From assembly GCA_002162095.1 (NCBI GenBank), contig CP021424.1, positions 248,001-312,000 on the forward strand: DNA of 64,000 bases, given 5' to 3'. The translations under genes were made by a program, and so were the position numbers. Every line of letters starts with the position of its first letter. Position 1 is the first letter of the stretch. This DNA comes from Armatimonadetes bacterium Uphvl-Ar2. GTDB taxonomy: Bacteria > Armatimonadota > Fimbriimonadia > Fimbriimonadales > Fimbriimonadaceae. The notes under the pieces are model-generated. The model was not told the origin of the DNA. It did no database searches and saw only the letters and a program-made list of their open reading frames with translations. Shown in pieces: positions 15,083 through 24,645 of the stretch.

Positions 15083-16345
15083 ATGTCCCGCCCGGGGGTG
15101 TATCGCGACAGTTGGTTTTGGAATGCGGGGCTGGCTTCCTATTGGTTCGCCTCCACTTTCAAGTGGTCCATCCTGCTGGCCTCTATCATCCCGGGGCAGG
15201 TCAAGGCCATTGTCCCGGCGGGCACGGAGAACAGCTCCTGGGGGCAGGTTTTTGCCATCGGGGCGCTGTGGGCCATCATCGGCCCCGCGCTCTTCGGCCA
15301 CTTAAGCGACCGACTCGGTCGCCGCAAGCCGTTTATCGCCGCCGGCAGCGCCCTCACCGTAATGGGGCTGGCCGTGATGGCCGACGCCTCCACTTTGGGC
15401 ATGCTCATCGTGGGGTACCTGCTCCTCCAGATCAGCGACGACGTGGGCACCGGCCCCTACGGCGGGGTCATCCCGGCCGTGGTGCCCGAAGACCGACGTG
15501 GATTTGCCAGCTCGGTCATGTCGCAGTTGCAGCTCTCCGCGCAGATCCTTTCCGCCGTCACCGGCCTCATTCTCAAGGACCCCCGCTTTGTCTATCTCGC
15601 GGTCGGATTGGTGAATGTGACCTGCGCCGTTATCACGCTGACCGTGATGCGCCCCATCCAAGAGAGCAAGCCGGAGACCAAGCCCGACCAACCCCGCGAA
15701 ACCTTTGCCGAAGGCTGGGTGAAGCCCTGGAAATCCCCGGATTTTCGCTGGGTATGGATCACCCGATTTCTGGCAGTTGCGGGCCTCACCCTCATCTTAA
15801 ACTACCTTCGCTTCTACTTTGAAGCCACCTACAATCAAGACGCCCAGGGCCGTTTGTTTATGTTTGGTCAACCGAAGTTTACGGGCAATGAATCTGTGAT
15901 GGTTGTCATCCTATTCATAGCTGTTTTCGGGGCCATCGGCGCGGTGCTTTCCTCTCGCCGGATCGATAAATGGGGCCGCAAGCGGGTGGTGCGGGGGGCG
16001 GCGCTCATCGTGATTGGATGTCTGGCGGCCTTTGCCGTGGTGCGCGATATCGGCCACGCGCTCCTCTTTGCGCCCATTTTCGGCATCGGTTACGGCAGCT
16101 ACTTGGCGGCCGAATGGGCGATGGCGATCGACGTCGCCCCCGACCCCGAAACCCTGGGCAAAGACATGGGCCTGTGGAGCAGCAGCCAGCCCACGGCGCA
16201 GTTTTTGGTCGGCAATGTGGGGTGGGTGATCGACGCCGCCAACCGCGCCCGCCCCGATTCCGGCTACATGGCCATGATCGCCATTGCCATCGTCTGCTTC
16301 CTCATCGGCCGGCACTGCGTCGGTCAAATCCAGGGCTCCTGCTAG
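15083..16345 (+). CDS. MFS transporter
   Basis: A 420-residue, roughly 12-helix carrier. The MFS loop 2-3 signature GHLSDRLGRRKPFIAAGS is clear and its weaker repeat RIDKWGRKRVV occurs in the second half. The helix 4-5 region (LLQISDDVGTGPYGGVIPAV) resembles sugar or glycoside carriers. It is divergent from the TIM-barrel sugar isomerase, so a carbohydrate substrate is a reasonable guess but no more. Confidence 0.87.
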   Translation: MSRPGVYRDSWFWNAGLASYWFASTFKWSILLASIIPGQVKAIVPAGTENSSWGQVFAIGALWAIIGPALFGHLSDRLGRRKPFIAAGSALTVMGLAVMADASTLGMLIVGYLLLQISDDVGTGPYGGVIPAVVPEDRRGFASSVMSQLQLSAQILSAVTGLILKDPRFVYLAVGLVNVTCAVITLTVMRPIQESKPETKPDQPRETFAEGWVKPWKSPDFRWVWITRFLAVAGLTLILNYLRFYFEATYNQDAQGRLFMFGQPKFTGNESVMVVILFIAVFGAIGAVLSSRRIDKWGRKRVVRGAALIVIGCLAAFAVVRDIGHALLFAPIFGIGYGSYLAAEWAMAIDVAPDPETLGKDMGLWSSSQPTAQFLVGNVGWVIDAANRARPDSGYMAMIAIAIVCFLIGRHCVGQIQGSC

Positions 16346-16397
16346 TTATCCACACCCGCCTCCGTTTCCTGCCGCTATCATGAGGGGGAGGTTCAAC

Positions 16398-16832
16398 ATG
16401 ATCGAAGACATTCTCAAGCAAGTCGGCGGCGCTTCCGGGCTAGGCGACAAAGCGGCTCCGCTGGTGCAGATGCTGATGCAGCACTTAGGCAAATCCGGCG
16501 CAGACCCCCAAGCGCTGATCGCCCAGCTCGGGCAAGCCGGATTGGGTGATCAACTCCAATCCTGGATCGGCACCGGTGCCAACCAACCCATCAACGGTGA
16601 CCAGGCCGAGCAAGCCCTCGGTAGCGACTTTATCCAGAACGCCGCCAGCCAACTCGGCCTCAGCCCCGATCAGGTGAAGCAAGCCTCCGCCGAAGCTCTT
16701 CCGGCGGTAGTGGACAAGGCCACTCCCAACGGCCAGGCGGATGACATGATCTCCGGCCTGATGGGCGCCCTCGGCGGCGGTGGTGACCTCGGCGCCATGG
16801 CCAAGGGTCTGCTGGGCAATCTCGGCGGCTAA
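16398..16832 (+). CDS. YidB family protein (DUF937)
   Basis: The 144-residue protein contains the YidB/DUF937 core: LGDQLQSWIGTGANQPI, then EQALGSDFIQNAASQLGLSP and ALPAVVDKATPNGQ, with a Gly-rich C-terminus. The function of this widespread family is not established. The ATG at 16398 is chosen over an upstream one because GGGGGAGG lies 8 nt ahead and the upstream part overlaps the MFS gene end. Confidence 0.82.
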   Translation: MIEDILKQVGGASGLGDKAAPLVQMLMQHLGKSGADPQALIAQLGQAGLGDQLQSWIGTGANQPINGDQAEQALGSDFIQNAASQLGLSPDQVKQASAEALPAVVDKATPNGQADDMISGLMGALGGGGDLGAMAKGLLGNLGG

Positions 16833-16848
16833 GCCTCGCGGGGGCGGA

Positions 16849-16854
16849 TATTAT
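16849..16854 (+). promoter_or_regulatory. -10 box TATTAT, leaderless-type
   Basis: TATTAT is followed by 7 nt (AGGAGGC) and a GTG start. The AGGAGG lies only 1 nt from the start codon, too close to act as a normal Shine-Dalgarno, so a leaderless transcript is the better reading. Confidence 0.5.
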
Positions 16855-16861
16855 AGGAGGC

Positions 16862-18226
16862 GTGAAGCGGTGGGCTCCCTGGTTGGTCGCCCCGGCTCTC
16901 GTCTCCTGGTTCATCTGGATGCAGCGGGCGTCGGGGGCGGGGCTCCTCAAGGATACGGACACCATGGTCCTGCTCCGCCGCATCCGCGAGGTGCGCGACC
17001 CGCTCTACTGGTTCTCGCACGATTGGCCGCTGGAAAACCACTTCTACCGGCCCATCTCCACGCTCACTTTTGAGCTCGATAATCATTGGTACGGCAACAA
17101 CGCGGCGGGCTACGGGGCCACCAATGCCCTGCTGGTCATCGCCACCGTGTTTGCCCTCTTCTGGCTGATTCGTGAACTCAGCAACCGCCCCTGGATGGCG
17201 GCCCTGGGCTCGTTCACCTTCGGTCTTTGGCACCTCTTCAATGCCGCCGATGTCCTCCGCGCGCCATTGTTTGCTTTGGCCGTCATCGGGGTCATCATCG
17301 GCATCGCCACCCGCCGGGCGGGCGGATTTGCGCTGGCCTGCGTCGCCACCCTGGCCACCCAATGGGCCGGCCCCGCCTTCCCGCTCTACGGTGCGATGGT
17401 CGCCTGGCTCCCCGGGCGCACCGCCAGCACCATGGCCATCTTTGCGCTGGTGTCGCTGGCCGCCTACGCTCGCTACGAACGCCTCACTGCCCCGCGCATC
17501 CCGCGCCCGCCCAGCCCGCTCAGCCTCACCGTCACTCGCGGCACCGCCGGAGAAGTCATCCATCCCCGTCGCCGTCAAGTCGGTTGGCTGCTGCTCGCCT
17601 ATGCGGGCCTCGCCCTTGCCTTGGGCAGCTACGAGCAAGCCATCATGGTGCCGGCTCTCCTTCTGGGCCTCGCCATCTGGTTCAACATAGGCGACGCCCG
17701 CCGCCCGCACTGGGGCATCCACGCCGGGTTCTGGGTGATGCTGGGTGGCTACTACGCCCTGCGCCTCGCGGTCTTGCCCACCACCGTCAGCCGGTATCAA
17801 GATCAGCAGTTCCGCAGCGGGCCTGGCGTCACCCTCAGCATCCTGGATTACGCCGCCCCGTTCTACGCTCCGTTCAATGGCCTGTGGGCGTCGCTGCAGT
17901 CCGGCATCGAAATCCTCGTCATGCCCGAACCCTGGCGCGCCCTCCTCATGGGGCTGGGTTTACTGGGGTGCGTCTGGGCGCTGCGCACCTCGCGCGACCG
18001 CTGGCTCATCGCATTTGCGTGGCTGGCCGCGATGTTCGCGTTCCTCCCCATGGCGTGGCTCAAGCATTTCGCGCACTACCACCACTTCCCTGCCGCCTTG
18101 CAAGCGCTGGCCTTTGCGGCCGTGGCCGGGGGGCTGGGCTCGGCGATTATGAACGCAATTGGGCCCCAAGGCCTTCAAGCGCCGCCACGACCCGATCCCG
18201 CACCTGGTTCGCTTCCTCGTCCGTAA
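16862..18226 (+). CDS. polytopic membrane protein, GT-C glycosyltransferase-like
   Basis: 454 residues with about ten membrane helices. The first loop has acidic and aromatic residues (KDTDTMVLLRRIREVRDPLY, then ENHFYRPISTLTFELD) in the place where GT-C glycosyltransferases keep their catalytic acid, and the helix layout resembles PMT-like enzymes. No clear subfamily motif is visible, so the function is tentative. The last 80 bp overlap the 3' end of the convergent pheT; the final residues (QAPPRPDPAPGSLPRP) are low-complexity and may be an accidental extension. Confidence 0.68.
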   Translation: MKRWAPWLVAPALVSWFIWMQRASGAGLLKDTDTMVLLRRIREVRDPLYWFSHDWPLENHFYRPISTLTFELDNHWYGNNAAGYGATNALLVIATVFALFWLIRELSNRPWMAALGSFTFGLWHLFNAADVLRAPLFALAVIGVIIGIATRRAGGFALACVATLATQWAGPAFPLYGAMVAWLPGRTASTMAIFALVSLAAYARYERLTAPRIPRPPSPLSLTVTRGTAGEVIHPRRRQVGWLLLAYAGLALALGSYEQAIMVPALLLGLAIWFNIGDARRPHWGIHAGFWVMLGGYYALRLAVLPTTVSRYQDQQFRSGPGVTLSILDYAAPFYAPFNGLWASLQSGIEILVMPEPWRALLMGLGLLGCVWALRTSRDRWLIAFAWLAAMFAFLPMAWLKHFAHYHHFPAALQALAFAAVAGGLGSAIMNAIGPQGLQAPPRPDPAPGSLPRP

Positions 18227-20171
18227 AGTTGCCGCCCTTGCGCAGTTGCAGGGCAATGGCCAGACTTCGCGTTCCCGCCGGCAGTCGGTCGCCCTCGTAG
18301 ACGTCGAACAGCCACATCGTCTCCAGCCATTCGCCCGCTGCCGCCCGTGCCGCCGCCTCAATCTGGGCGTAAGGCAGGTCCTGGCTCACCAGCACGCTGA
18401 TGTCGCGCCGGGTCGCCGGGTGGCGGTGGATGGTGGTGTAGGGCGCCTCGGGCAAGGCCGTGCCGTACCAAGCTTCCAGATCAATTTCGGCCAAGAACGT
18501 CTGCGCGGGCAACCCCGTGGCCGTCGCCCATTGCGGGTGGATCTGCCCCATCACGCCCCCCGACCAGCGCGCCGATCGCGTGGGGTGGAAGCGCCCATCC
18601 GCCCCGTCCAGGGGCTCCAAGTCCAGCGGCCGGGCCGCGTGGCGGGCCACCGCTTCCAGCACGCCCTTGAGGTCGAAAAAGTCCGCCGCCGGGGCTCCGT
18701 CCTTGCGCCAGTCCGGTCCGCGCCCCTGGCCCGTCATGAGGATGGCTAGTTGCGCCCGCTCGGTCGCATCGGTGAACACGCGCCCCATCTCAAACAGGCG
18801 CAGGTCTTGCCCGCCATTGCGCAGGGCGGCTTCGGCCAGACCCGGCAGCAAGGAGTTGCGCAGCACGGCGTGCTCCGGCGAGTGCGGGTTCAGCAGCGGC
18901 ACCAAATCGCTGGCCGCATCCAGTTCGTGCGCCTTGCGCAGGGTGTGGCTCAGGCACTGGTCCAGCCCCGCCCGCAGGGCGGCCTCGCGCACGCGGTCCT
19001 GCCAGCCTTCGTAGCCGTGCGCCCCGCCAATCCCGTTGCTCCCGGCCACCGGCCACTCGGGGATGCGCTCGTAGCCGTAAATCCGCCCGACTTCCTCAAT
19101 CAGGTCCTCCTCCCGGGCGATGTCAAACCGCCACGAAGGCGCACCCACCCACAGGCAGTCCTCTTCGGGCCGGGCCGTCACGCTGAATCCCAAGCCCATC
19201 AAGGCGTCCGCCGCCTCCGAAATCGTCACCGGCACCCCCAGCAGCGCCCGGCATCGGGGCAGACTCAAGTCCAGTTCGGCGGGCTGGTAGGTGAAGTTCA
19301 CCACCTGCGCCGCGCCCCCTACCGGCTTGGCCCCCGTGATCTCTTCCAGCAAGTCGGCAAAGCGGTCTAGCGCGCGCACCACGCCCTCGGGGTCCACACT
19401 GCGCTCAAATCGGTAGCTCGCCTCGGTTTGCAGGCCCAGACGTTTGCGGGTGCGGCGCACACACTGGTTATCAAAGTGCGCGGATTCCAGCAAGCACGAG
19501 GTCGTCGTTTCGCTCACCTCGGTGGTCGAGCCCCCCATCACGCCCGCCACCGCCACCGGGCCTTCGCCGTCGCAAATCAGCAGCATGCCGGGTTCCAGTT
19601 CGCGCTCAATCTCATCGAGGGTGGTCATGCGTTCGCCCGCTTCGGCCTCGCGCACCACTATGCGCTGACCCCGCACCAAGGCGGCATCGAAAGCGTGGAG
19701 CGGCTGCCCGAGCTCGAACATCACGTAGTTCGTCAGGTCCACCAGCAACGAAACCGGCCGCTGGCCCAGCAGTTCCAGCCGCTGTTGCAGCCACTCCGGC
19801 GAGGGGCCATTCGTAACTTCGGGGAACAAGCGCAACGCGTACTGCGAACACGCTTGGCTCTCAATCTTGATGTTGGTTTGGCTCCAGATGTCGCGGTTGT
19901 CGCGGTCGCGGCGCGGGGTGTCGGCCATCAGGCGACTCAGCAGTTCGGTCGGCTCCGCCGCCGGATCCTTGGCTAAAATCTCGCGCGCCAAGCCCAGAAT
20001 GCTGGCCCCATCGCCCCGGTTGGCCATGATGTTCACGTCCAGTACCGGCTCGCCGTTGATCTCGAGGATCTCTTCTAGCTCAAAGCCCGTCATCGTCAGC
20101 AGATCGCCCAGCGCCTCGGCGCTCAAGTCAGTCTTGACGTAGTCCTTAAGGACAGAGACAGGCAGCTTCAC
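18147..20171 (-). CDS. pheT: phenylalanine-tRNA ligase beta subunit, lacking the OB-fold domain
   Basis: PheT pairs with PheS to charge tRNA-Phe. The product is 674 residues, against about 790-800 in most bacteria. The N-terminal piece (MTGFELEEI) runs straight into VLDVNIMANRGDGASILGLA, so the roughly 110-residue EMAP/OB-type tRNA-binding insert is absent. The B3/4 editing region, B5, the catalytic-like core (WRFDIAREEDLIEEVGRIYGYERIPE) and the C-terminal ferredoxin-like anticodon domain (HRHPATRRDISVLV, KGGNFTDEEAN) are present. The start is GTG, 7 nt behind TACACT. pheS is separated from it by an inverted gene. Confidence 0.92.
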   Translation of the reverse strand: MKLPVSVLKDYVKTDLSAEALGDLLTMTGFELEEILEINGEPVLDVNIMANRGDGASILGLAREILAKDPAAEPTELLSRLMADTPRRDRDNRDIWSQTNIKIESQACSQYALRLFPEVTNGPSPEWLQQRLELLGQRPVSLLVDLTNYVMFELGQPLHAFDAALVRGQRIVVREAEAGERMTTLDEIERELEPGMLLICDGEGPVAVAGVMGGSTTEVSETTTSCLLESAHFDNQCVRRTRKRLGLQTEASYRFERSVDPEGVVRALDRFADLLEEITGAKPVGGAAQVVNFTYQPAELDLSLPRCRALLGVPVTISEAADALMGLGFSVTARPEEDCLWVGAPSWRFDIAREEDLIEEVGRIYGYERIPEWPVAGSNGIGGAHGYEGWQDRVREAALRAGLDQCLSHTLRKAHELDAASDLVPLLNPHSPEHAVLRNSLLPGLAEAALRNGGQDLRLFEMGRVFTDATERAQLAILMTGQGRGPDWRKDGAPAADFFDLKGVLEAVARHAARPLDLEPLDGADGRFHPTRSARWSGGVMGQIHPQWATATGLPAQTFLAEIDLEAWYGTALPEAPYTTIHRHPATRRDISVLVSQDLPYAQIEAAARAAAGEWLETMWLFDVYEGDRLPAGTRSLAIALQLRKGGNFTDEEANQVRDRVVAALEGLGAQLRS

Positions 20172-20178
20172 GGCCGGG

Positions 20179-20184
20179 AGTGTA
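20179..20184 (-). promoter_or_regulatory. -10 box TACACT, leaderless-type, for pheT
   Basis: On the minus strand TACACT is followed by 7 nt (CCCGGCC) and the GTG of pheT. This gives pheT its own promoter, needed because the gene between pheS and pheT points the other way. Confidence 0.5.
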
Positions 20185-20241
20185 CCGGGCGAGGCTGGCG
20201 GCCCCGGCCCTCCTTCCCGAGCCCTCCCACCCCGGGCGGGG

Positions 20242-20247
20242 TACCTT
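20242..20247 (+). promoter_or_regulatory. candidate -10 box TACCTT
   Basis: TACCTT is followed by 7 nt and the GTG start at 20255. It resembles the other leaderless-type starts here but is a weaker match. Confidence 0.35.
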
Positions 20248-20254
20248 CCCCCTC

Positions 20255-20836
20255 GTGAGTCGTCTCCCCTCTTGTCTGGCCATTGCGGCGGCCTCCCTGG
20301 CGCTCACCTCGTCCGCATCGGGGCAAGCCACCCCCCAGAACGACACCTTCTTCACCGCCGGTGCGGGCACCGTCACCACCCAAAAGTGGCTGGGCAGCTC
20401 GGACATCCGCCGGGGCGGCCAGTACTTCGTCACCTACTCCCGCCCGGAACCCCGCTTCGCTTTCCAAAACCACCCCGCCCAGTGGGTGTGGCACGCTTAC
20501 TACCTCCCCACGCGCGGCGGCGCCCACTTCCAGGCTCCGTTCCGCACCAGCCACGGGTATGGGCTCATGGCCTCCGCCCGCTACTGGAATCGAGCCCCCC
20601 AAAACCTCCCCACCTTCATCGAGGCGGGCTGGGGCGTGCATCTGCAGGATAAATGGACCGACGACGTGGACCTGCCGCTCTCCAGCAGTCCGTTCATCGG
20701 CATGGGCGTGCTGGTGGACATCGGCGGGCAGGAGGCCATCTTTGCCACCCGCCTGATTCACATCAGCAACGCGGGCATCGGCGCGCGCAACCGGGGCCTC
20801 AACGCCCTGGTGTTCTCCCTCGAATTCAAGTTCTAA
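20255..20836 (+). CDS. acyloxyacyl hydrolase / lipid A deacylase PagL-like outer-membrane protein
   Basis: A signal peptide (to about residue 23, ASGQA) is followed by an amphipathic-strand protein of about 170 residues ending in an aromatic strand (VFSLEFKF), as outer-membrane barrels do. The segment LIHISNAGIGARNRGLN matches the PagL active-site block, with His169 and Ser171 in place; the third catalytic residue, Glu in PagL, appears as Asn183. PagL removes the 3-O acyl chain of lipid A; activity here is uncertain. It lies in opposite orientation between pheS and pheT. The GTG at 20255 is chosen for the signal peptide. Confidence 0.7.
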   Translation: MSRLPSCLAIAAASLALTSSASGQATPQNDTFFTAGAGTVTTQKWLGSSDIRRGGQYFVTYSRPEPRFAFQNHPAQWVWHAYYLPTRGGAHFQAPFRTSHGYGLMASARYWNRAPQNLPTFIEAGWGVHLQDKWTDDVDLPLSSSPFIGMGVLVDIGGQEAIFATRLIHISNAGIGARNRGLNALVFSLEFKF

Positions 20837-20844
20837 TTCGAGCC

Positions 20845-21849
20845 TTAGCGGGCCGAGGCGTACCGCCGCAAGAAGCGGAGGTCGTTCTCAAAGAAGTACC
20901 GCAGGTCGTCAATGCCGTACCGCATCATCGGGATGCGCTCCACGCCCAGGCCAAAGGCAAAGCCGCTGTAGCGCGAGGAGTCAATCCCGTATCGCTCCAG
21001 GATGTTGGGGTGAATCAGACCCGCACCCCCCAGCTCCACCCACTTGCCGTTGAACAGCTTCGGCGTGCTGATGGCGTAGTCCACGCCGGGCTCAACAAAC
21101 GGGAAGAAGTCGGGGCGGAACCGCACCTTTACTTCCGGCCCGAACATCGCCCGCGCAAACGTGCCGAGCGTGCCTTTGAGGTGCGCCATGCTCACCCCTT
21201 CGTCAATCATAAAGGCGTCCACCTGGTGGAACGTGTGGTTGTGCGTGCGGTCCACGGCTTCGTTGCGGAAGGTGCGCCCCACCGTGAACACGCGCAGCGG
21301 CGGCTTGGTGGATTCAAAAACGCGCCCCTGCAAGGCCGTGCACTGGGTGCGCAGGAGCACATCGTCGCTCAGATAAAACGTATCCTGCGCGTCCATCGCC
21401 GGGTGGTCCGGCGGGTAGTTCAGGGCATCAAAGTTGTAGCGGAACTCTTCCCGCTCCGGGCTCTCTTGGTAGACGAACCCCATGCCACCCAGCACCCGCT
21501 TGATCTCGTTGGTGGTCTGCTGCAGCACGTGTTCGATGCCCACGCGCGGCTCGTGGCCGGGCAAGGTCACATCAATACGCTCAGCGGCAAACTGCGCCGC
21601 CCATTCCCCTTCGCGCAAGGCTTCACGGCGGGCTTCGAGTTCCGATTCGATCAGGGCGCGGGCTTCATTCACCTTGGCCCCGAACGCCGGTCGCTCTTCC
21701 GCTGAAAGCTGGCCAATGCCGCGCATCAGGCCGCTCACACTGCCTTGCTTGCCCAGGTACTGAATCTCAATCTCACGGAGCGCCGCCGTGCTGGTGGCTG
21801 CGTGGATGACCGCGCGGGCCTCTTCAATCAGGGGAGTAATGGCGTCCAT
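20845..21849 (-). CDS. pheS: phenylalanine-tRNA ligase alpha subunit
   Basis: PheS carries the aminoacylation site. The 334 residues show the coiled-coil N-terminus (to about 80), then the class II core: HPRVGIEHVLQQ-like entry, the motif 2 region RTHNHTFHQVDAFMIDEG and motif 3 GLGVERIPMMRYGIDDLRYF, with substrate-site stretches FRPDFFPFVEPG and WVELGGAGLIHPN. Length is normal. It lies 7 nt behind a small membrane protein gene that is coupled to gyrA, so gyrA, the small gene and pheS probably form one transcript. Confidence 0.95.
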   Translation of the reverse strand: MDAITPLIEEARAVIHAATSTAALREIEIQYLGKQGSVSGLMRGIGQLSAEERPAFGAKVNEARALIESELEARREALREGEWAAQFAAERIDVTLPGHEPRVGIEHVLQQTTNEIKRVLGGMGFVYQESPEREEFRYNFDALNYPPDHPAMDAQDTFYLSDDVLLRTQCTALQGRVFESTKPPLRVFTVGRTFRNEAVDRTHNHTFHQVDAFMIDEGVSMAHLKGTLGTFARAMFGPEVKVRFRPDFFPFVEPGVDYAISTPKLFNGKWVELGGAGLIHPNILERYGIDSSRYSGFAFGLGVERIPMMRYGIDDLRYFFENDLRFLRRYASAR

Positions 21850-21856
21850 GACGGTG

Positions 21857-22087
21857 TTATTTTGAACGTGCGGGCTCCTTCTTCACCCGGGACCAGACAA
21901 TGACCGCCAGGATCACCGCCGCCACGAACCCCATCCACTGCCCGCGCAGGGCAAACCACCCTAACGGCACTAAGGGGAGCCACGTAAGGGCTCCCCAAAG
22001 GAGGGACCGGCGCGTGCCGGCCAGGCTCACCGCCGCCCATGCCATCGGCAGAAGCACGATCAGCATGGCCGACTTCAGCGGGTTCAC
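21857..22087 (-). CDS. small membrane protein of unknown function
   Basis: A 76-residue protein with two or three hydrophobic helices (about 6-23, 28-46 and 50-66) and a basic C-terminus (SRVKKEPARSK). Its ATG overlaps the gyrA stop by 4 bp, so it is translationally coupled to gyrA, and pheS starts 7 nt after it. I recognise no family. Confidence 0.65.
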   Translation of the reverse strand: MNPLKSAMLIVLLPMAWAAVSLAGTRRSLLWGALTWLPLVPLGWFALRGQWMGFVAAVILAVIVWSRVKKEPARSK

Positions 22088-24570
22088 GATTCGTCCGTGG
22101 TCTCGACAACCTCAGAGGCTTCGCCCTCGCCCACCACGTCGCCTTCATCCGGGTCTTGGATGATGCGCGCGATGCTGGAGATGGAGTCCCCGTCCTGCAT
22201 GTTGATCAGCTTCACGCCCTGGGCTACGCGGCCCACCAGGCGGATGTCCTTGACCTTCACGCGGATGCCCTTGCCCTTGGCCGTCAGCACCAGCAAGCGG
22301 TCGTCTTCGTCCACCACTTCGGCGCTCACGATCACCCCGGTCTTGTCGGTGACGTTCATCGTGAGGATTCCCTTGCCGCCGCGACCTTGGGTGCGGTAGT
22401 CGTCCAGATTGGTGCGCTTGCCAAAGCCGTTTGTGCCCACCACCAGAAGCGTCGAGCCCTCGCGGACAATGTCGGCCCCCACCAGGATGTCGTCATCGCC
22501 CAGGCGCATGGCTCGGACCCCACCCGCCGTGCGGCCTCGGTCGCGCGCCAAGGTTTCGTTGAAGCGGATCGAGAGGCCAAGCTGCGCCACCAGGATGATG
22601 TCGTCCTCGCCGCGCGTCACCAGCACCCAGCCCAGTTCGTCGCCATCTTCGATGTCGAACGCCTTGAGGCCGTTGCTGCGGATGTTGGAGAACTTCTCCA
22701 TGGCCGTGCGCTTGATCTCACCCTTGCGGGTGATCATCGTCAAGTAGCCGTCGGCCTTGATGTTCTTCACGCTCACCGCCGCCGTCACGCGCTCGCCCCC
22801 ATCCATCGCGATGTAGTTGATGAGCGGCATGCCCCGGCTGTAGCGGGTGCTTTCCGGCAGGTCGTAGGCGCGCAGCTTAAACACGCGGCCCCGATCCGTG
22901 AAGAACAGGACGAAGTGGTGCGTGTTCACTTGGAACAGGTGCGCCGGCTCGTCATCTTCCTTGGTCACCGTCTTCAGGCCCTTGCCGCCGCGCTTCTGCT
23001 GGCGGTAGGCATCGAGGCTAATGCGCTTGATATAGCCATCGCGGCTGATGCTGATGATGGCCTCCTCTTCCGGAATCAGGTCTTCTTCGCTAAAGTCGCC
23101 GGCTTCACGCTCGATGATGCGCGTGCGTCGCTCGTCGCCGTGCTTGTCGCGCATCTTGGCGATGTCTTCGCTGATGACCGCCGTCATGCGGGCTTCGTTG
23201 GCCAGGATGTCCATCAGGTCTTGCGCGGTGCGCAGGGCTTCCTTGTACTTGGCTTCCAGTTCCGACTGTTCAAGCTGCGTCAGGCGGCGCAGGGGCATCG
23301 CCAGGATGGCGTTGGCCTGCAGGGCCGACATATCAAATTCGCGGATGAGTCGCACGCGGGCTTCAGCGGGGTCCACCGATTCGCGGATTGTGCGAATGAT
23401 GCGGTCCAGGTTGCGCCGGGCAATCTGGTAGCCCTCGTTGAGGTGAACATCTTCCAGCGCGCGGTACAGGTCGTACCGAACTCGGCGCTCGGTCACGATG
23501 CGACGGTGCTTGATGTATTCATCAATCAGCGTCAGCAGCGGGCTCACACGCGGAGCGCCGTCCACGAGCGACAGCATGATGCAGCCGAACGTGGTGCGCA
23601 GCTGCGTGTGCTTCAGCAAGTAGTTCAGCGCCTTGTTCGGGTTCACGTCGCGGCGCAGGTCCACTTGGATGCGCATCCCGCGCTTGTCCGAGTAGTCCTC
23701 GACGGCAGTGATCCCGTCAAACTTCTTCTGCTTGGCCAGGGTGGCAATCGCCGCCACCAAGTTGGACTTGTTGACTTGATACGGGATCTCCGTGATGATG
23801 ATCGCGGTCTTGCCGTTGTCTAGCGGTTCGATCATCGTCTTGGCCTGCATCACCACCGAGCCGCGCCCGGTTTCGTAGGCATCTTTGATCCCCTTCACGC
23901 CCATGATGAGGCCGTGGGTCGGGAAGTCCGGACCCGGCAGGTGCTCCATCACTTCCGGCAGCGTGGACTGCGGGTTGGCGATGCGGAACAAAATCGCGTT
24001 GCACACCTCGGTGAGGTTGTGCGGCGGCATGCTGGTGGCCATCCCCACCGCAATGCCCTGAGAACCGTTACAAAGCAGGTTCGGGAACTTGGCCGGGAAC
24101 ACCGTCGGTTCCATCGTGGACTGCAGGTAGTTGTCCGTCCATTCGATGGTCTCGCGCTCCAGGTCCTCCATCAGCTCCATGGCCAACGGGGTCAGGCGGC
24201 ATTCCGTATAACGCATGGCGGCCGGCGGGTCGCCGTCAATGCTGCCAAAGTTTCCTTGGCCTTCCACCAGCGGGTAACGCATGGAGAAGGGCTGCGCCAT
24301 GCGCACCAAGGTGGGATAAACGACTTCGTTGCCGTGCGGGTGGTAGTTGGCCGTGGTTTCGCCGGTCACCTTCGCGCACTTCGTGGTCGGGTTGCTGGGG
24401 GCCAGGTTGAGTTCCCGCATCGAGTACAAGATGCGGCGCTGCACCGGCTTGAGACCATCCCGCACATCGGGGAGGGCCCGCGCCACGATGACGCTCATCG
24501 CGTAGTTCACATAGGAACGCGATAACTCGTCTTCAATCTCTACGGTACGAACAATCGGATCTTCGGGCAC
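22084..24570 (-). CDS. gyrA: DNA gyrase subunit A
   Basis: GyrA is the DNA-breaking subunit of gyrase. The catalytic Tyr lies in AAMRYTE (residue 121 from the chosen start), and the C-terminal domain carries the GyrA box variant QKRGGKG, which marks it as GyrA rather than ParC. At the quinolone-determining positions the usual Ser83 and Asp87 (E. coli numbering) read Glu and Pro in YHPHGNEVVYPTLVRMAQ. The GTG at 24570 with GGAAG 8 nt upstream is preferred to a TTG 24 nt earlier, which falls inside a leader hairpin. Length is about 828 residues, normal. Confidence 0.95.
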   Translation of the reverse strand: MPEDPIVRTVEIEDELSRSYVNYAMSVIVARALPDVRDGLKPVQRRILYSMRELNLAPSNPTTKCAKVTGETTANYHPHGNEVVYPTLVRMAQPFSMRYPLVEGQGNFGSIDGDPPAAMRYTECRLTPLAMELMEDLERETIEWTDNYLQSTMEPTVFPAKFPNLLCNGSQGIAVGMATSMPPHNLTEVCNAILFRIANPQSTLPEVMEHLPGPDFPTHGLIMGVKGIKDAYETGRGSVVMQAKTMIEPLDNGKTAIIITEIPYQVNKSNLVAAIATLAKQKKFDGITAVEDYSDKRGMRIQVDLRRDVNPNKALNYLLKHTQLRTTFGCIMLSLVDGAPRVSPLLTLIDEYIKHRRIVTERRVRYDLYRALEDVHLNEGYQIARRNLDRIIRTIRESVDPAEARVRLIREFDMSALQANAILAMPLRRLTQLEQSELEAKYKEALRTAQDLMDILANEARMTAVISEDIAKMRDKHGDERRTRIIEREAGDFSEEDLIPEEEAIISISRDGYIKRISLDAYRQQKRGGKGLKTVTKEDDEPAHLFQVNTHHFVLFFTDRGRVFKLRAYDLPESTRYSRGMPLINYIAMDGGERVTAAVSVKNIKADGYLTMITRKGEIKRTAMEKFSNIRSNGLKAFDIEDGDELGWVLVTRGEDDIILVAQLGLSIRFNETLARDRGRTAGGVRAMRLGDDDILVGADIVREGSTLLVVGTNGFGKRTNLDDYRTQGRGGKGILTMNVTDKTGVIVSAEVVDEDDRLLVLTAKGKGIRVKVKDIRLVGRVAQGVKLINMQDGDSISSIARIIQDPDEGDVVGEGEASEVVETTDES

Positions 24571-24593
24571 GGTAACAACTTCCAGACGGAGCA

Positions 24594-24645
24594 AGCCCCG
24601 TTGAAGGTGTCAGAGTACCTCTGATCGAGACCTTCAGACGGGGCT
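24594..24645 (-). promoter_or_regulatory. long hairpin between aspS and gyrA
   Basis: AGCCCCGTTGAAGGT pairs with ACCTTCAGACGGGGCT (one bulge), and an inner CAGAG-TAC-CTCTG stem fills the loop. The structure lies just upstream of the gyrA start and about 30 nt after the aspS stop in the left-going transcription path if aspS and gyrA were co-transcribed in that order. With no T tract it could be an attenuator, a processing site or a leader control of gyrA. Confidence 0.5.

Follow-up and report, generated by a model that had tools for sequence, protein, structure and literature searches.

In other bacteria, the B1 domain of PheT, the beta subunit of the aminoacyl-tRNA synthetase PheRS, carries an inserted EMAP-II-like OB-fold, the B2 domain. 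A 2006 title by Roy and Ibba reportedly called B2 dispensable and a contributor to editing, and a 2003 title by Lin and Huang is said to contain the words 'domain losing'. For the Thermus enzyme, passages of Klipcan et al. (PMC3275996) assign anticodon binding to B8, call B2 EMAP II-like, and place Thr249, Asn250, His261 and Glu334 in the editing site. PheRS beta subunits without B2 have already been published from the candidate phyla radiation (CPR), where B2 is missing and B8 is kept according to passages of Mukai et al. 2017 (PMC5370408), and the PheT of Mycoplasma pneumoniae, as described in part of PMC12494982, still supports growth when divided into B1-B2-B1 and B3-B8.

Here we describe a PheT from Armatimonadetes bacterium Uphvl-Ar2 that very probably belongs to a functional bacterial (alpha-beta)2 PheRS whose beta subunit has no B2 OB-fold insert in B1. 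The protein resembles canonical PheT (T. thermophilus 1pys_B and E. coli 3pco_B) in the order and fold of B1, B3/4, B5, B6/7 and B8, and canonical bacterial PheRS in its editing residues and its pheST gene pair, but it is without the B2 OB-fold in B1 and measures 674 residues as against 785-795. With the CPR form of Mukai et al., as far as the passages cited go, it shares the missing B2, the retained B8 and a similar hairpin length. Archaeal and eukaryotic PheRS beta subunits (TIGR00471) likewise have no B2 and a short B1 hairpin; however, they also lack B8, which the protein described here keeps, and its TIGR00471 score of about 86 bits lies below the cut-off of 282.65, so that it falls outside the archaeal type.

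The window, meaning the whole 64,000-nucleotide stretch that was analysed, lies in a genome of 2.63 Mb assembled as a single contig. The original prediction placed pheT correctly, at 18147-20171 on the minus strand, where an uninterrupted open reading frame of 674 residues runs from a GTG start at 20171 to a stop at 18147-18149. The features of the locus are as follows.

18147..20171, minus strand: pheT, bacterial-type PheRS beta subunit without B2 (674 aa; TIGR00472, 487.5 bits)
20028..20084, minus strand: beta-hairpin closing B1 at the usual B2 site, residues 30-48, strands 30-38 and 41-48 (AlphaFold2 model and alignment)
20046..20066, minus strand: LEINGEP, residues 36-42, the join that replaces about 114 B2 residues (sequence and alignment)
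19332..19853, minus strand: B3/B4 editing domain, residues 107-280 (PF03483, 222 bits)
19071..19271, minus strand: B5 domain, residues 301-367 (PF03484, 71.7 bits)
18477..19043, minus strand: B6/B7 catalytic-like module, residues 377-565 (PF17759, 117.8 bits)
18153..18425, minus strand: B8 ferredoxin-fold anticodon-binding domain, residues 583-673 (PF03147, 71.2 bits)
20845..21849, minus strand: pheS, PheRS alpha subunit, upstream of pheT (334 aa; TIGR00468, 295.8 bits, cut-off 237.45, and Pfam)

The bacterial family model TIGR00472 (pheT_bact) scores this PheT at 487.5/490.5 bits, above its cut-off of 402.65, in a match that starts at profile position 152 and continues to the end, and the models for B3_4, B5, CLM and FDX-ACB (B8) all score above their Pfam cut-offs. 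The B1 model PF18262 covers residues 6-65 in one piece, though weakly, at 14.1 bits against a cut-off of 26.8; we count B1 as present because the AlphaFold2 model is confident there and its alignment to PheRS chains begins at residue 1. PF01588 (tRNA_bind, the B2 model) has no Pfam match in the protein up to E = 1. In the AlphaFold2 model, built with 38 sequences (mean pLDDT 89.2, pTM 0.58), the turn of the hairpin falls at residues 39-40. A VIA alignment of this model with T. thermophilus 1pys_B gave a Z of 45.1 over 642 residues with an rmsd of 12.3, a value indicating that the single-chain model arranges the domains differently. Pfam, the spacing of residues around the B2 site, the model and the structure alignment all agree with the original prediction that the other PheT domains are present and B2 is cleanly absent.

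To measure that spacing, we used an anchor distance, the number of residues between F30 (in MTGFELEE) and R52 (in NRGDG), which flank the B2 site. It is 22 here and 136 in E. coli, which puts the missing stretch at 114 residues, where about 110 had first been proposed; the chain does not pass directly from MTGFELEEI to VLDVN as had been stated, since LEINGEP (residues 36-42) intervenes. Long forms have distances of 132-152 in CPR (36 rows) and 112-167 in other bacteria (17 rows), and the short forms, at 18-38 in Armatimonadota and 18-30 in selected CPR (n=25), show no overlap with the long class. The PheT of Babelota (L076, L077, L079 and L082) has 112-113 residues between the anchors and is missed by our B2 HMM, built on up to 30 CPR long forms and E. 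coli; the Babelota insert is either a strongly diverged B2 or another domain at the B2 place. Because the HMM misses this insert, the B2 state was decided by the anchor distance and not by a negative HMM result alone.

A free-standing tRNA-binding OB protein had been proposed as something to look for, and one does exist in the window's genome, where PF01588 has two matches, in the C-terminal domain of MetRS and in a CsaA-like protein. The latter speaks for a B2 moved to a separate protein acting in trans, but it matches a CsaA family (TIGR02222, 121.8 bits, cut-off 119.65), the other match is MetRS, and each of 14 genomes sampled from other families of the same order, whose PheT is also without B2, has a single PF01588 match. 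The CsaA-like protein belongs to an ordinary family, and a second PF01588 match is absent from these B2-less genomes of the order, so the protein does not indicate that B2 was relocated; with PF01588 confined to MetRS and the CsaA-like protein in the organism's own genome, we rejected relocation, which we regard as very unlikely. Nor is B2 encoded nearby or inserted elsewhere in the protein, the two outcomes that the original prediction had named as telling against it: the genome has no second pheT and the protein no insert at another place.

Within Armatimonadota, the anchor distance was 18-38 in 109 of the 110 genomes whose PheT was fetched and aligned, and exactly 22 in 71 of them; in the remaining genome (L121, family code f31) the N terminus of PheT is cut by a contig end. 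This count leaves out L033-L048, the fragments L127, L128, L133-L136 and L140, and the archaeal-type L137-L139 (f6). L033-L048 are 16 rows that largely repeat counted genomes, 15 with a distance of 22 and one, a broken gene, with 4. In the alignment with CPR and E. coli, Armatimonadota likewise read 18-38, except in two rows cut in the B2 region. B2-less genomes cover 42 of 45 Armatimonadota family codes, the absent ones being f20 (no match), f31 (cut) and f6 (archaeal-type PheRS). TIGR00472 matched in 241 of the 251 genomes of the phylum sample, and among the matches listed all begin at profile position 153 at least; where the N-terminal piece also appears, as in G126, a few codons lie between the part matching profile 1-41 and the part from 158 onward. 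A search of relatives found PheT in 60 of 61 genomes, and the full-length PheT of these relatives, whose alignment to the window protein starts at residue 1-6, lie in open frames of 656-756 aa; the one exception is G055, whose frame of 911 aa has its surplus length upstream of the start.

A sequence 99% identical at PheT comes from a named MAG (L033) labelled Chthonomonas sp. UBA2785, and most of the next relatives carry the label Fimbriimonadaceae or Armatimonadetes. That B2 is hidden by an artefact of assembly or gene calling, in favour of which we found no supporting point, can be given practically no weight: the pheT frame is uninterrupted, and the same state in the gene of L033 and in 109 of 110 genomes of the phylum, as independent assemblies, refutes it. 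The absence of B2 is a natural trimming of PheRS, found almost throughout the phylum and again in other bacteria, and not a one-off.

Two departures were seen among the Armatimonadota. The f6 genomes G061, G075 and G088 (L137:604-2298, L138 and L139:640-2331) carry an archaeal-type PheT adjoining the PheS end, with TIGR00471 scores of 477 and 458 bits (cut-off 283) in the two that were scanned, and no match to a bacterial-type PheT was found in these three genomes. In G164 (f17; L135/L148), pheT is split among several frames on a single contig, through either sequencing error or decay.

We also looked at other phyla, each comparison sample taking the phylum name of the named locus from which it was drawn. 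TIGR00472 matched in 188 of 192 Patescibacteria/CPR genomes, with both B2 states among the matches listed. The 20 short CPR forms that were fetched (L233-L252) are all without B2; they give no frequency for the 192 genomes searched, because they were chosen for looking short. The Bacillota sample (59 of 61 genomes matching) held six PheT whose match begins at profile 152-159, and on alignment these six of 59 lack B2, with 22-23 residues between the anchors. One of these genomes belongs to a small class (n=4), of which three genomes give full-length matches starting at 154-158 and one gives a match in two pieces starting at 159. No B2-less bacterial PheT was seen in the samples of Actinomycetota (60 of 60 matching) or Pseudomonadota (59 of 60), where matches start at profile 1-16 except for fragments and one archaeal-looking case; this assessment excludes G531 (a fragment) and G602 (the archaeal-looking case). 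In G602, sampled as Pseudomonadota, a PheT-like frame of about 670 aa (L270:961-2976) lies beside a PheS-like one, matches TIGR00472 only at 370-694 and has a CxxC-rich stretch near its N terminus; the protein looks archaeal-type from its sequence.

The statement that nearly all bacterial PheT have B2, and the rarity that it implied, were therefore too strong, since the B2-less form is general in Armatimonadota, common in part of CPR and also found in some Bacillota. The literature searched, with most subscription journals outside its scope, held no report of B2-less PheT in Armatimonadota or Bacillota. As a kind, B2-less PheT is already known; the useful part is the pattern, fixed through Armatimonadota and scattered in CPR and Bacillota.

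How the pattern arose was addressed with PheT trees built without the B2 columns, all of them, like the AU tests, resting on quick trees with long branches and uneven letter make-up. The long-branch CPR rows L068, L073 and L087 are in the 105-row tree and were left out of the 49-, 63- and 66-row trees. Armatimonadota stand on one side of a branch in four of four trees (SH-aLRT 99 with 105 rows, 98 with 49, 81 with 63 and 94 with 66), and the B2 state has to change 7 times in the 105-row tree, 5 times in the 49-row tree and 11 times in the 63-row tree. AU tests, each modest and single, went against one clade of B2-less Armatimonadota and CPR (p 0.029) and one clade of Armatimonadota and Bacillota short forms (p 0.014). 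These results suggest that the B2-less state may have arisen separately in Armatimonadota, CPR and Bacillota; an apparently separate origin, together with being phylum-wide, sets the Armatimonadota form apart from that of CPR.

Most likely, B2 would have disappeared a single time at the base of Armatimonadota or earlier, with further, repeated losses probably in CPR and in Bacillota. We prefer loss to ancestral absence because the rows without B2 lie dispersed among those that carry it. Of the 'clean domain loss' originally described, the clean absence stands and loss is the likeliest reading, with its direction inferred, as the trees cannot place the root. It is unlikely that bacterial PheT originally had no B2, that Armatimonadota retained this form, and that a later insertion of B2 was passed on by descent or exchange. 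Archaeal-type PheT is also without B2, with 19 residues between the anchors in each of three sequences, and in the 66-row tree rooted on three archaeal-type PheT, where the basal fork is open and the root is not placed, Armatimonadota (support 94) leave that fork. However, B2-bearing actinobacterial rows leave from the same fork, the branch to the outgroup is very long, with 2.87 on either side of the root as drawn, and B2-less rows sit among B2-bearing ones, as with Bm_L254 beside Bp_L262 (support 95 and 98). An equally improbable elaboration would make the bare-hairpin B1 original in bacteria and archaea, and B2 a labile cassette, gained once at the tip of the hairpin and afterwards often removed or exchanged, nearly always back to a loop of about 22 residues.

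Whatever its history, the trimmed enzyme keeps its editing-site residues. In the alignment, T147, N148, H159 and E229 correspond to E. coli T253, N254, H265 and E334, and their correspondence to the Thermus residues is inferred from motifs and from the alignment to E. coli. N148, H159 and E229 are invariant in 127 of 127 Armatimonadota rows, and T147 is conserved in 124 of them and replaced by S in 3. With the editing site intact, charging and proofreading would be expected to persist; the trimmed PheRS would most likely bind tRNA through its remaining contacts, and the contribution of B2 should be modest. By analogy, the split PheT of Mycoplasma pneumoniae suggests that the B1-B2 region may be tolerant of change. 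Armatimonadota are a phylum in which an essential enzyme is naturally without B2, so that native enzymes, in place of engineered truncations, can be used to address the role of B2 in tRNA binding and in Tyr-tRNA-Phe editing. The pattern also shows that even a domain standard in a bacterial aminoacyl-tRNA synthetase can be labile in evolution, and the B2 state could serve as a marker of the phylum.

Around pheST, no Rfam family matched in 16000-24600, and no tRNA-Phe was found in the window. Between pheS and pheT, on the opposite strand, lies a PagL-like lipid A 3-O-deacylase frame (20180-20836, plus strand; PF09411, 44.6 bits), which among 16 related loci is present at pheST only in the 99% identical L033.
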